From the NCBI GenBank assembly GCA_030432305.1, contig JAUIHN010000001.1:1-47368 (forward strand): a stretch of 47,368 bases of DNA, written 5' to 3'. The notes under the pieces are model-generated. The model searched no databases, was not told where the DNA came from, and saw nothing but the letters and a program-made list of their open reading frames with translations. Of this stretch, positions 21,920 to 34,276 are shown piece after piece. This DNA comes from a bacterium. Lineage in GTDB: Bacteria; Patescibacteriota; Saccharimonadia; Saccharimonadales; Saccharimonadaceae. Made by a program: the position numbers and the translations under genes. How positions within the stretch are numbered: position 1 is the first letter of the stretch; every line of letters starts with the position of its first letter.

Positions 21920-21991
21920 TTAGGTAGTGAGGCGCCAGTGGTCGGGCTCGTCCCGACGTGTTTCACGCATAGCGGAACCTGTACGGTTCAT
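21920..21991 (-). CDS. Candidate 23-aa upstream ORF before the Nudix gene
   Basis: ATG at 21991, ten bases after a TATACT -10, TAA at 21920-21922, and 20 bases before the Nudix start. The peptide is polar and Arg-rich (MRETRRDEPDHW near the end). The segment folds into two hairpins (GAACC...GGTTC and GTCGGG...CCCGAC). It has the same length as the uORF before aspS. It could be a leader peptide or merely part of a structured 5' UTR. Confidence 0.3.
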   Translation of the reverse strand: MNRTGSAMRETRRDEPDHWRLTT

Positions 21992-22001
21992 AGTAGAGAT
22001 T

Positions 22002-27828: not shown

Positions 27829-29652
27829 TTAGAAGAGTCGGCGGACACCTATGACCGAGCTGCCGATAAGGATGATGGCGCCGGCAACGATGAAGAATAG
27901 ATAGTTCTGCTCTTCTTCTGGCTGCTCGCTGGCGCTACCGCCGTCTGTCGCGCCCATAACTTCAGCTTCTGGCGCCGAATCCGTCTCGCCTTCTGCTTCG
28001 GTTGTGGTTTCGACCGCTACGACAGCAGGCGTACTGAGGTTGCGGCTGTCGACGATAACTCTCCTGACGCTCGCAGCGACACTTTGTCCGCCCGACGTCT
28101 TCTCTTTCGGTACGAATTCTACTGGCCCGTTTGGATTTGGTTCTGGCTCCTCAGGTGTATTGCCGTACTTGGTCTTCATACCCAAGCTGCCAAACCAATC
28201 TCCCATGATGTTTATAAAACATATGCCGAACCAGCCGCTCAGACTCAGAGAGCTGTTTGAGACATTGGCAACGTTTGCTAGCGCATGAGCGCTGCCGCTA
28301 GTGGCATCGCCAGCCTTGGTGTTATTTGCTACCGTGGCGTCGCCCGAGCCAGCCGTTACGGAAATATTGTTGGTGATGCCGTGCTTTGATTCTGATTCGA
28401 TAGTGAGGTCTGGAGCATACTTCTGGTCGGTTGTGACGCCGGTGCCTATCATGGCGGCGGTGGCGCCAGCCGGTGCATCGACAATCATGCCGACCCATTT
28501 TCCGAGCACGTTCACGAACACCAGCATGCTGTTCTCTGCCACGATATCCCTGCCGGTGACGTTGAATATCACGACATTTGAATCGGCGTCGCCCGTCGTG
28601 GCGCTGCCTGCTTCGGTATTACCAAAGACACTGGCCGCGCCACTCTCGGCAACCGCGGAGATGTTATTTACAATCGTAGTCGTGTCTTGCTTGGATACTT
28701 TGGTGCTCGAGCTTCCCTCACTACCGCCATTGCTGGCCAGCATCTGCGGGATGAAGTCTGGCGCAATCAGAATGTCGCCCTCAAGACTACCGTATATGTT
28801 GATAGTGCCGATAAACGAATCTTGCATCGCTATCATTGAGTTCAGTATATTGACGACATTAGCCATCGCCGCGGCATTGCCAGAGGTGGCATCGCCAGCT
28901 TCGGTATTGTTCTTAACCGACGCGTCACCGCTCTGGGCATTGAGCGTAATGTCATTATTGACGTCGAAATCGGTAGTGGCGTTGATCTTTGTCTTCTCAG
29001 TGCTCTCCGCCTGCTGTTCGAGCATGGCTTTTAGCAGGAGTGGATAAAGGACAATATCACCCTTGACGTCACCCATAATATCTTTAGAAAAGGTCGAGAC
29101 TTTTTGGTTGCCACTAGCGCCAACACTTGAATTGACGGCATTTATAATATTGGCTACCGCTGAGGCATCGCCAGATAGGGCGTTACCACCGCGTGTATTG
29201 CCAGCCACAGAGGCATTGCCAGATAGGGCGTCTGAGAGGATCTCATTATTAATCCCGACTTCTGTGTTGCTGCTCTTTTTGGTTGATGAGTCGAGGTCTT
29301 GCTGGACCGCCTCATCCTGAGACTTCTGCGTTTGTGGCCCTTGGTGATTTGGAAGTTGCGGCGCTACTGGTTCAACAATCGTCGGTGCTGGCGGTCGCTC
29401 GTACTTGCCGGTTTCTGGATTAAATTGCCACCGCTTACTATTCCACTTCTTTGTTTCGGGGTCGTATGTGTAGGCCGGGCCTTTCTTCTCCTCCTCAGGA
29501 GCTTGGCTCTCAGACTGTGCCTCTGCTGAGGCTTCTGAGTTTACCGCTGGCTGCTCCGTGGTGGCCATCGCCGTGGTTGGATAACCAGCCACAAGGACTA
29601 ATGCGCTGATGTAAAGAATGACCTTCCGCGCTGCATCGACAGTCTTTTGCAT
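27829..29652 (-). CDS. Large secreted repeat protein with C-terminal membrane anchor
   Basis: Taken from the Met at 29652 (SD AAAGGGG six bases before it), 607 residues. Signal peptide about 1-30; a Glu/Gln-rich stretch; a YDPETKKW...FNPETGKYE motif pair (63-85) like those seen in other CPR surface proteins; then four repeats of about 97 residues starting near 134, 231, 328 and 427. Each repeat begins NN-x-I...SG(D/N)A(S/T)VxxNTxxG(D/N)AxSG and ends near GDI(V/L)xxP. The C-terminus has a linker, a TM helix (584-602) and RRLF, without LPxTG. The repeats look like a beta-solenoid. Related repeats occur in the proteins at 29725 and 31398. Confidence 0.85.
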   Translation of the reverse strand: MQKTVDAARKVILYISALVLVAGYPTTAMATTEQPAVNSEASAEAQSESQAPEEEKKGPAYTYDPETKKWNSKRWQFNPETGKYERPPAPTIVEPVAPQLPNHQGPQTQKSQDEAVQQDLDSSTKKSSNTEVGINNEILSDALSGNASVAGNTRGGNALSGDASAVANIINAVNSSVGASGNQKVSTFSKDIMGDVKGDIVLYPLLLKAMLEQQAESTEKTKINATTDFDVNNDITLNAQSGDASVKNNTEAGDATSGNAAAMANVVNILNSMIAMQDSFIGTINIYGSLEGDILIAPDFIPQMLASNGGSEGSSSTKVSKQDTTTIVNNISAVAESGAASVFGNTEAGSATTGDADSNVVIFNVTGRDIVAENSMLVFVNVLGKWVGMIVDAPAGATAAMIGTGVTTDQKYAPDLTIESESKHGITNNISVTAGSGDATVANNTKAGDATSGSAHALANVANVSNSSLSLSGWFGICFINIMGDWFGSLGMKTKYGNTPEEPEPNPNGPVEFVPKEKTSGGQSVAASVRRVIVDSRNLSTPAVVAVETTTEAEGETDSAPEAEVMGATDGGSASEQPEEEQNYLFFIVAGAIILIGSSVIGVRRLF

Positions 29653-29724
29653 AATACCCCTTTCTATAAGTTCTGGACGAGGCGGCGACATACGCCGCCG
29701 CCCCTCTCTTCGCACCGTGTCTAA

Positions 29725-30330
29725 CTAGTTAGTGATGCTGACGTTAAAGCTTGATGAGCTTGTGTTTGAAACGCTACCACTTGTAGCATCGCCACCTGTG
29801 GTGTTGAATCGCACCGTAGCTTCACCAGACTCAGCTGATTGCTCAACAGTGTTGTTGATGTCAACGTAGTTTCGGTTTTCGATGTCAACCTCTACCTCGT
29901 GTTCGATCTCAACTTCGTTTTCTGAGCGAGGACCAGTGTTTTCGATAGTCGCCTCTACATCACCAGCTCCGCCCCATGAAACAGCATCGCTCACCGCTGC
30001 AGCTGATCCAGAGTTGTCATACATGACAGTTGCTGAAACGCTGTTTGAGTTGTCTGCGTCGCCGCTCATTGCGCTACCACCAGTTGTGTTGTAGCGTACT
30101 GTAGTCTCACCACTTTGAGCGCTCTGAGAGCTAGAGTTGTTAAGATCTAGATCGTTTTTATTCTCGATGTCCAGTTCTACTTCACTCTCGTATTCAATCT
30201 CGTTTTCAGAGTTAGGACCGGTTGTATCAATCGTGCCGTTCAATGCTCCGGCGAATCCGGCCATACCGAACACGAGCCCAACTGATAGTACACCAGCACC
30301 CGCTAGCTTCTTGATATCTACTTTTTTCAT
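29725..30330 (-). CDS. Secreted two-repeat 'TGPNSEN' protein
   Basis: A 201-residue protein: signal peptide (about 1-30, basic MKKVDIKK start), then two tandem repeats of 95 residues starting at TGPNSEN (37) and TGPRSEN (132). Each repeat runs GPxSENE(I/V)E, an acidic strand ending (V/L)DIEN(K/R)N, then the shared module SGExTVRxNTTGG(S/D)AxSG. There is no TM, sorting signal or cysteine, so it would be released or bound non-covalently. Strong SD (AGGAGGG). It precedes the large repeat protein by 72 bases and is probably co-transcribed. Likely a surface or matrix subunit; function unknown. Confidence 0.82.
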   Translation of the reverse strand: MKKVDIKKLAGAGVLSVGLVFGMAGFAGALNGTIDTTGPNSENEIEYESEVELDIENKNDLDLNNSSSQSAQSGETTVRYNTTGGSAMSGDADNSNSVSATVMYDNSGSAAAVSDAVSWGGAGDVEATIENTGPRSENEVEIEHEVEVDIENRNYVDINNTVEQSAESGEATVRFNTTGGDATSGSVSNTSSSSFNVSITN

Positions 30331-30558
30331 ACACCCTCCTATTAGGTTACTTCTGTCCGCAGGATTGGTAAAAGAGATTCCCTCTTCGTTATGTTCGCAC
30401 TACCAACGACGCAGCGCCCAAGCCCTTTAAAAGGGATTCGTTTGCTTGGAACTTTATGCCTCGCATGCATTCGTTCATAGTTTTTAAACATCGCCCTGAG
30501 ACCTATATTCAGCCTATCGTCTCTTAAATTTTTTGTATGCGAGAAATATTACATAATG

Positions 30559-30578
30559 ACTGTAAAATTTCTTACAGT
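30559..30578. promoter_or_regulatory. Palindrome ACTGTAA-N6-TTACAGT upstream of the TGPNSEN gene
   Basis: Perfect seven-base arms around AATTTC in the 261-bp gap between the sortase gene and the 201-aa gene. It has no T run, so an operator is likelier than a terminator. One half (TTACAGT) also occurs in the palindrome upstream of the Crp/Fnr gene. The rest of this gap shows no gene and no clear promoter. Confidence 0.4.
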
Positions 30579-30591
30579 AACATTTCCAGCT

Positions 30592-31389
30592 TTATGCAAC
30601 CCCTTTTAAGGCGAAGACAGCCAAGGTTCTGTGTTGGTCGAAGAGCCCCGAGCATGTCTGTAAAATCAGCTTTGGACTACCCTCTGCCGTCAACATACTG
30701 ACGTCTGAAGGCTCGACTTGCTTGACCAGCTCAAGGGAGTAGACAAAGCGAGTGCCCTCTATGGTATAAACGCTAGCTTCGGCTCCAGTCTGGACATCGG
30801 GCAGCGCCCCAAATATCCCCCATTTGGCATGGCCGTATATCAGCGTGGTGCCGTTGGAATCGTTGACTGGAACCGTGGTGCCGGCGTGAAAGGCCGAACT
30901 GTCATCTACGTGCCACGAGCTAGATGCCACATCGTACGCTCCGGGCTGCACGCCGATATCAATGCTAACGCTCGGCACAACTATGCGGTTAGCCTTCCCG
31001 ATGATAGGAGGGTCGATTTCTTCTCTTTGCTCCTTTTCGGGTTCACTTTCCCTCTCGCCTACGGCTATGACCGGCGCCGGCACGATGAATTTCGAGGAGC
31101 CTGCCCGCTTTGCCAAAGCCGAGAATAGTTCTCCCGAAGTGGCAGTTCCACCCGTCAAAACAAACGGCATGCCCATACGATATGCTGTATGGGCATGCGT
31201 TCTTTTCTTTTCTGTGACTACTGCGCTAGGCTGCTGCTTGTCCGCCACTGCCTCGTGGCTGTAGTCTTGGCTCGCCACGTATTCGACAATCGTGGTCTGC
31301 TCAGACTCCACCATCGGCGCAGGGAGCGGCAAAAACGCCGCGACTACACCTGTGGCCAGTAAAAATCGACTGAGGTGTAGCCCAAACAT
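30592..31389 (-). CDS. Sortase (class E/F-like transpeptidase)
   Basis: A 265-residue membrane-tethered sortase. N-terminal signal/anchor (about 5-25), a long variable stem (about 28-130), then the sortase beta barrel from IIGKANRIVVPSVSIDIGV (about 129-147). The catalytic triad is visible: His187 in TLIYGHAKW, Cys246 in LILQTCSG and Arg254 in QHRTLAVF. Sortases cut LPxTG-like signals and attach proteins to the wall or to each other. The substrate is probably the adjacent LPVTSG protein, whose gene ends eight bases upstream. SD GGAG precedes the ATG. A 32-bp palindrome lies in the stem-coding part. Confidence 0.9.
   Translation of the reverse strand: MFGLHLSRFLLATGVVAAFLPLPAPMVESEQTTIVEYVASQDYSHEAVADKQQPSAVVTEKKRTHAHTAYRMGMPFVLTGGTATSGELFSALAKRAGSSKFIVPAPVIAVGERESEPEKEQREEIDPPIIGKANRIVVPSVSIDIGVQPGAYDVASSSWHVDDSSAFHAGTTVPVNDSNGTTLIYGHAKWGIFGALPDVQTGAEASVYTIEGTRFVYSLELVKQVEPSDVSMLTAEGSPKLILQTCSGLFDQHRTLAVFALKGVA
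31167..31198. repeat. 12-bp inverted repeat within the sortase gene
   Basis: GCATGCCCATAC and GTATGGGCATGC, perfect arms around eight bases, in the stem-coding region. It could form an mRNA hairpin; no T run follows. Confidence 0.6.
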
Positions 31390-31397
31390 AGGTGCTC

Positions 31398-31946
31398 CTA
31401 GTCCTGGAGCTGCAAACGACGGTACGCCGCTGCGATACCAGCTACGGCAGCAAGGCCACCGATTGAGGCGAGCACGACAGGAGCCGAGCTACCACTCGTC
31501 ACAGGCAGGGCTGTTGGCGTAACATCTTGCTCCGGCTCAACACCGCCACGGCCTGGCTCTTTTGGCTCTTCAGGAGTCTCTTTAGCAGGTACAACGTGTC
31601 GTGCAAAGCAAGGCTCTTCGCTGCCGTTATCGATAGCTACTGTAAAGTTCACAGTATTGTTGTTTGAGCTTGTGCCAGACGTAGCACCGCCGCCCTGACC
31701 GCTATTATCTACAGTAACGTCACCACTCGTCGCCACTTGCTCGTTTTCAAAGTTAATATTCACTTTGTTCTCGTTATCTACTTCGCAAACATATGTCTGC
31801 TCTGAAACACACTCGTTCTCCGAGTTTGGTCCGGTATAACCAACCTCACAGCTGAATGTTGACTGCGCATAGCTTGGCGTGCTCACTGCCAGTGGCACAA
31901 ACGCCAACAACGCGGCCACAGCCGCTACATTAAGTAGTCTTTTCAT
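31398..31946 (-). CDS. Surface protein with TGPNSEN module and LPVTSG sorting signal
   Basis: A 182-residue protein: signal peptide (1-27, ending YAQ), one TGPNSENE module (38-45 and on), the shared SGDVTVDN...GGATSG segment (74-91), four cysteines (33, 46, 54, 113), a Pro/Glu-rich wall-spanning linker (117-142), then LPVTSG (147-152), a hydrophobic helix (155-175) and RR. This is the layout of a sortase substrate, with Ser-Gly following the LPxT. It is immediately upstream of the sortase gene in the same operon, as expected for a dedicated substrate. SD AGGAGG. Confidence 0.85.
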   Translation of the reverse strand: MKRLLNVAAVAALLAFVPLAVSTPSYAQSTFSCEVGYTGPNSENECVSEQTYVCEVDNENKVNINFENEQVATSGDVTVDNSGQGGGATSGTSSNNNTVNFTVAIDNGSEEPCFARHVVPAKETPEEPKEPGRGGVEPEQDVTPTALPVTSGSSAPVVLASIGGLAAVAGIAAAYRRLQLQD

Positions 31947-33867: not shown

Positions 33868-33889
33868 CAGTAATCAACAAACAAATTCT

Positions 33890-34200
33890 TGGCTCCTGCG
33901 ACTGGGCTCGAACCAGTGACCTAGTCGTTACACGTACCCGGTATTTTCATATCGGTGTGGACTATCTCATCATCCTACAAGTAGGATGCAGGGCGCTTAT
34001 GAAGGAATATCGTTCGGCTCACCTTCTAGTCTCTGAACCTTCCGAAGTCTCTTAACCTAACTTCGGCTTGGCTGCGGATTCGCATATCTTGTCTTGTAGA
34101 CAAGACGTAGCCTTCCCGCAATTCACCCCGTTTTCACGCTCGCGTTACCGCCAGCGGCTGCAATTTACAGCGACCCGCTCTACCACTGAGCTACGCAGGA
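33890..34200 (-). tRNA. tRNA-Asn (GTT) interrupted by a group I intron
   Basis: Exon 1 is 34167-34200 (34 nt: acceptor TCCTGCG, D arm, anticodon stem GGTCG and loop CTGT). Exon 2 is 33890-33930 (41 nt: TAA, CGACT, variable loop, T arm CTGGTTCGAGCCCAG, acceptor CGCAGGA, G, CCA). Joined, they make a 75-nt tRNA with loop CTGTTAA, anticodon GTT, close to other bacterial tRNA-Asn. The intron lies between anticodon positions 35 and 36. CCA is encoded. Read without splicing, the loop would show GTA (Tyr), but the rest of the tRNA matches Asn. Promoter at 34247-34276, terminator at 33843-33867. Confidence 0.93.
33931..34166 (-). other. Group I intron (IC3-like), 236 nt, in the tRNA-Asn anticodon
   Basis: Inserted after U35. 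P1 is visible: exon GCUGU pairs with intron GCAGC around AAAUU, giving the conserved U-G at the 5' splice site; the last intron base is G. Core elements: P near 34113-34123 (AATTGCGGGAA) and Q at 34066-34080 (AATCCGCAGCCAAGC), whose TGCGG/CCGCA form P4; R at 34027-34038 (GTTCAGAGACTA) and S at 33959-33967 (AGATAGTCC), whose GACTA/TAGTC form P7. A perfect hairpin CATCCTAC/GTAGGATG follows the core region. These match the cyanobacterial/Azoarcus tRNA intron class. No homing endonuclease ORF is present. Confidence 0.9.
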
Positions 34201-34246
34201 ATAGATGCCAAGAATTTGGTTGTCGATGTGTCAAAGTACAGAGGGT

Positions 34247-34276
34247 ATTATATCTATAAATCACCTCTTTAGTCAA
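34247..34276 (-). promoter_or_regulatory. Promoter of tRNA-Asn
   Basis: Minus-strand TTGACT, 18 bases, TATAAT; leader of about 40 bases containing the arm at 34207-34222. Confidence 0.65.

Follow-up and report, generated by a model that had tools for sequence, protein, structure and literature searches.

Known bacterial tRNA hosts of group I introns include those for Leu, Arg, Ile, and fMet (PMC3984707, PMC8450103, PMC5733544). The IC3 intron of Azoarcus tRNA-Ile(CAU) (structure cited in PMC3984707) is, like the intron described here, a small bacterial tRNA intron in the anticodon loop, whereas its host is tRNA-Ile(CAU) and not tRNA-Asn. The introns of cyanobacterial and plastid tRNA-Leu(UAA), Agrobacterium tRNA-Arg(CCU), and cyanobacterial tRNA-fMet are likewise anticodon-loop ribozymes—sporadic in their distribution and partly mobile—and differ from the present one by their host tRNA. 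Within the anticodon loop, the Azoarcus intron occupies a different position from that of the tRNA-Asn intron.

Candidate Phyla Radiation bacteria, the same broad host group, carry the same ribozyme class in rRNA genes, mostly with LAGLIDADG endonucleases, in contrast to the tRNA host found here; the rRNA of Saccharibacteria is reported to be nearly free of group I introns, and tRNA is not mentioned in that study (PMC11270868). Introns claimed to be group I in cyanobacterial tRNA-Arg, -Gly, and -Lys share the anticodon-loop position (PMC5733544), but at 22–49 nt they could not accommodate a group I core and are not comparable. Beyond bacteria, an archaeal survey found group I introns only in rRNA (PMC6125680), and all phage group I introns known by 2014 were located in protein genes (PMC3984707). 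A publication naming tRNA-Asn as a group I host was not found in the openly licensed literature; a subscription paper could exist.

The locus described here lies within the window, by which we mean the whole 47,368-nt stretch of Saccharimonadaceae DNA that was analyzed. A tRNA-Asn(GUU) gene spans positions 33,890–34,200 on the minus strand, where two exons of 34 nt (5′) and 41 nt (3′) flank an insert of 236 nt (Table 1). ARAGORN in its default mode missed this gene; in intron mode, it places tRNA-Asn(gtt) at c[33890,34200], the anticodon loop being interrupted by an intron of 236 nt—which bears out the original prediction of two tRNA-Asn(GUU) halves 236 nt apart and places them on the minus strand. 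When joined, the exons form a standard 75-nt cloverleaf in ARAGORN, a perfect tRNA-Asn with anticodon GUU and an encoded CCA, as expected of a spliced tRNA. The predicted insertion between U35 and U36 is likewise recovered by the RF00028 match, ARAGORN, and covariation; U35 is the U of the P1 U–G pair. On the same strand, cmscan aligns 34,178–33,938 to the full length of the Rfam group I intron model (RF00028, model positions 1–253) with 85.2 bits and an E-value of 2.1e-20, over the gathering score of 50. The window's genome yielded no further group I intron. The IC3 assignment is one of resemblance, based on conserved core sequence, size, and the tRNA anticodon-loop setting. A group I intron thus interrupts the anticodon of tRNA-Asn(GUU); very probably, it is spliced from one pre-tRNA to give the sole tRNA-Asn of this organism.

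Table 1. Features of the split tRNA-Asn(GUU) locus in window coordinates.
Feature	Position	Strand	Evidence or remark
Candidate sigma-70-type promoter, TTGACT-18-TATAAT	34247–34276; −10 box 34252–34247	−	11/12 consensus matches; likely
5′ leader strand of clamp (ATCGACAAC CAAATTCTTGGC)	34207–34227	−	Perfect 12-bp complement to trailer; +8 bp in MFE fold
5′ exon, tRNA-Asn positions 1–35	34167–34200	−	ARAGORN with introns
Group I (IC3-type) intron, 236 nt, terminal G	33931–34166	−	RF00028 85.2 bits and covariation
P1: exon GCTGT (34171–34167) with guide GCAGC (34161–34157), U–G at 5′ splice site	34157–34171	−	Invariant in nine introns
P2 hairpin	34137–34156	−	Double-sided changes in 6/6 counted pairs, nine introns
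P3: CGGGGTG (34130–34124) with CGCCCTG (33995–33989)	33989–34130	−	Nine introns: 100% paired, double-sided changes at one pair
P4 (34120–34115 with 34078–34073) enclosing P5 (34112–34082)	34073–34120	−	P4 100% paired; P5 compensatory changes
P6/P6a	34037–34072	−	Compensatory changes
P7: GACTA (34031–34027) with TAGTC (33964–33960), guanosine-binding helix, pseudoknot with P3	33960–34031	−	Invariant, 100% paired
P8 hairpin	33971–33988	−	Perfect 7-bp stem in window; weaker among relatives
P9 hairpin, GAAA loop	33938–33955	−	RF00028 alignment; compensatory changes
3′ exon, tRNA-Asn positions 36–76, CCA encoded	33890–33930	−	ARAGORN
Trailer strand of clamp (GCCA AGAATTTG TTT GTTGAT), overlaps G73-CCA	33873–33893	−	Complementarity to leader; MFE fold

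Within the family, the intron is present at the same site in nine sampled genomes—that of the window (G000) and eight relatives—from seven genera. In intronless relatives, the orthologous site reads exactly CTGT/TAAC (the slash marking the insertion point), and the gene is unsplit. The acceptor stem carries U4–A69 in the window and G4–C69 in the intronless genomes G016, G145, and G072; this compensatory change spans both exons, which hence appear to evolve, and to be read, as one tRNA. Both intron-bearing (G004, G008, G026, and G061) and intronless genomes (G099, G104, and G125) have a lexA-like gene upstream of tRNA-Asn. In the window, an mscS gene, not found in those other genomes, is placed between the lexA-like gene and the tRNA.

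The shared site in seven genera and the lexA-like synteny in several genomes are what purely vertical inheritance of the intron in the family, devoid of any mobility, would produce. Nevertheless, we consider such a history improbable. Intron-bearing and intact-gene species both occur inside the same genera, and in a FastTree phylogeny of 50 introns the family introns fall into two separate groups, the window intron clustering with those of G201 and G026 (local support 0.95); sporadic presence together with two intron clades is consistent with mobility. In addition, the leader–trailer clamp described below and the lexA-like neighbor ally the window genome with G004, G008, and G114, unlike the intron tree. 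This discordance between intron and context—moderate evidence, as the alignment is short—suggests a transfer or replacement of the intron. On the reading that includes mobility, the window intron is probably a mobile element whose homing endonuclease has been lost; an open reading frame of at least 80 aa overlapping the 236-nt intron, as sought for a homing endonuclease, was not found.

A second tRNA-Asn gene was not found in the window's genome by tRNA model, pattern, or BLAST search of an assembly that comprises 64 contigs and is 88.8% complete, so that a further copy could sit in the missing part; several other tRNAs likewise went undetected. Thus, the premise of the original prediction, a single tRNA-Asn gene, holds within this assembly and gains firmer ground from the relatives: the strict pattern detected no intact tRNA-Asn in any of the nine intron-bearing family genomes, and five of the intron-bearing relatives without an intact copy are 98–99% complete. 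The case for the split gene as the sole tRNA-Asn of the genome is strong but not final. The fragmented assembly and its undetected tRNAs would also accommodate a dead split copy, whose intron no longer splices while an intact tRNA-Asn resides in the unassembled part. This is very unlikely, since constraint is evident on both the core helices and the exons, the promoter is retained—its TATAAT box being kept in three relatives—and the intact gene is also absent from the five 98–99% complete relatives.

Some candidates were rejected during these searches. A looser pattern adds no hits among the nine genomes beyond the following: a weak tRNA match at G000:C9:8–69 that carries TGTTAA is not Asn and, on reading, represents a truncated tRNA-Leu, and the matched sequence of two further hits in G004 is incompatible with tRNA-Asn. 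Genera g2, g12, and g36 were dropped as extra carriers of the split gene: the strict pattern had missed an intact variant with GGTT in the variable loop, which the looser pattern revealed in the members checked.

The fold of the intron was assessed in an alignment of nine tRNA-Asn introns from one bacterial family, with P1–P9 written out and P7 treated as a pseudoknot. Standard pairs occupy 91.9% of the cells, and 25 of the 62 pairs show double-sided changes that still pair. The covariation score of 0.416 compares with a shuffled mean of 0.125 (0/500 shuffles as high), and sliding the partners by 1–3 columns lowers the pairing to 35–43%. P1, P4, and P7 are invariant and, hence, contribute no covariation, though they are fully paired. 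The core—P3–P8 and P4–P6 with the P3/P7 pseudoknot—is present with covariation support, and the U–G-bearing P1 and the terminal G are invariant across the nine family introns. The alignment recovers, as first proposed, P1 (GCUGU/GCAGC with its U–G), P4, P7, and a terminal G, and adds P2, P3, P5, P6, P8, and P9 to them. P9 is imperfect, and a P10, sought by eye, was not established. The whole pre-tRNA fold lies 6.4 SD below shuffles. That the insertion merely resembles group I and is protein-spliced or unspliceable—for example, an archaeal-type bulge-helix-bulge intron—may be prompted by its place in the anticodon loop, where intron types other than group I occur as well, but it is hardly credible next to a full-length RF00028 match 35 bits over the cut-off, the P3/P7 pseudoknot, a P1 with U–G, and the terminal G.

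For a group I intron at this site, processing would start from a single pre-tRNA transcript that covers both exons and the intron, and the intron would fold as a group I ribozyme. An external guanosine would then cleave behind U35, which contributes the U to the P1 U–G pair, and attack at the terminal G of the intron would join U35 to U36 and free the intron. Asn decoding would rely entirely on the product, tRNA-Asn(GUU). While splicing proceeds, a leader–trailer clamp might keep the two exons together. We infer this chemistry, its operation in cells, and the exon-holding role of the clamp from sequence.

The clamp pairing itself is perfect: leader CAAATTCTTGGC is complementary to trailer GCCAAGAATTTG throughout, G73 and CCA included. 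The predicted helix comprises 12 bp, or up to ~20 bp in the fold, with the CCA end paired. In G004 and G114, the 12 bp are kept while the middle bases differ—a case of covariation—and in G008 one mismatch is seen by inspection; the loci of the relatives with a clamp are L025, L044, and L026. When 295 family genomes were searched by pattern, the leader motif appeared in five, namely the window genome, G004, G008, G114, and the intronless G111, the trailer of which is no match. Elsewhere, in ten further intronless and four further intron-bearing genomes, the pairing comprises at most 6 bp. As the four clamp genomes are related, the tie between clamp and intron presence is suggestive only.

The distribution of such introns was followed in a species scan, in which a single genome represented each species; it sought the P7 3′ strand with the U36-A37-A38 3′ exon behind it and yielded at least 116 stretches. 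Both exons were located by the exon finder in at least 73, at least 69 of which are tRNA-Asn(GUU) with the same insertion point. Among the matches listed, the hosts are Cyanobacteria, Acidobacteria, Omnitrophota, Elusimicrobia, Nitrospira, Deltaproteobacteria, Ignavibacteriae, many Patescibacteria, and two Pacearchaeota. Rfam scored 11 of 15 scan loci from outside the window's order over the gathering score, with L127, L128, L134, and L147 below it. Within the phylum, 69 of 380 genomes have pattern matches, ~5 of which are contiguous tRNAs by inspection; their removal leaves roughly one genome in six, a figure for pattern matches whose host tRNA was not read individually. In viral contigs (L231–L350), group I-like introns split about 39 distinct tRNA genes, and the exon finder assigns 20 of these to Asn. 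The remaining phage cases are probably Lys, Arg, Thr, or Ile, the anticodons being uncertain for non-Asn introns that do not end in G, where the script misplaces the joint. Pattern matches in genomes and viral contigs include chance contiguous tRNAs.

The original prediction could name no tRNA-Asn host, and no publication naming one was found, but the rarity it implied is not supported, as these introns are common in sequence collections—at least 69 in the species scan, besides those of the viral contigs. The tRNA-Asn intron appears to be a frequent, under-annotated representative of an established intron class. We give about even chances to a broader proposal: that tRNA-Asn(GUU) is a major uncatalogued home of group I introns across bacteria (approximately one in six sampled genomes of the phylum), reaching into archaeal and phage tRNAs, and that one clade evolved an exon-clamping leader–trailer helix so that the ribozyme makes its only Asn tRNA.

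Several individual loci deserve mention. In Pacearchaeota, L120:1910–2184 is a tRNA-Asn with a group I-like intron (RF00028, 83.1 bits) beside archaeal KH-domain and aIF2-beta-like genes; L128 (~950–1350) is another, below the RF00028 cut-off and adjoining an archaeal KH-domain gene. Such tRNA introns would widen the range of archaeal group I hosts past the rRNA of the earlier survey (PMC6125680). In G052, from the same order as the window genome, the tRNA-Asn intron (L028:1205–1759) measures 555 nt and includes a 106-aa frame (1233–1553) with HNH-like Cys/His motifs by eye and without a Pfam match. In L053 (G190), the 5′ exon appears twice around an N run, perhaps due to an assembly join. In genus g36 of the window's family, a tRNA with a CAU anticodon carries group I introns (L043, L045, L047, L050, and L051), with an insert of ~610 nt in L050 and L051; most of these are labeled Leu(taa) by ARAGORN.

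If splicing is confirmed, this organism—a member of a reduced-genome group—would depend on an RNA enzyme to translate each of its Asn codons. Standard tRNA finders miss or mistype this common class of split tRNAs: the window gene escaped ARAGORN in default mode, and in relatives the intron mode returned Leu or Thr. The Leu(taa)/Thr(tgt) labels for L027, L046, L048, and L049 were rejected, as the exons, when read, are all tRNA-Asn. Genomes with such a gene therefore look as if they were without tRNA-Asn.

Elsewhere in the window, an MDR-NUDIX RNA motif (RF02918, 63 bits) is located at 21,932–21,994 on the minus strand. This RNA is typical of Saccharibacteria, for which a literature search gave no confirmation. 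At 27,829–31,946 on the minus strand, several consecutive genes encode secreted-looking proteins that bear repeats such as GDATSGNA/GNTxAGDATSG, with a sortase-like open reading frame at 30,592–31,389.
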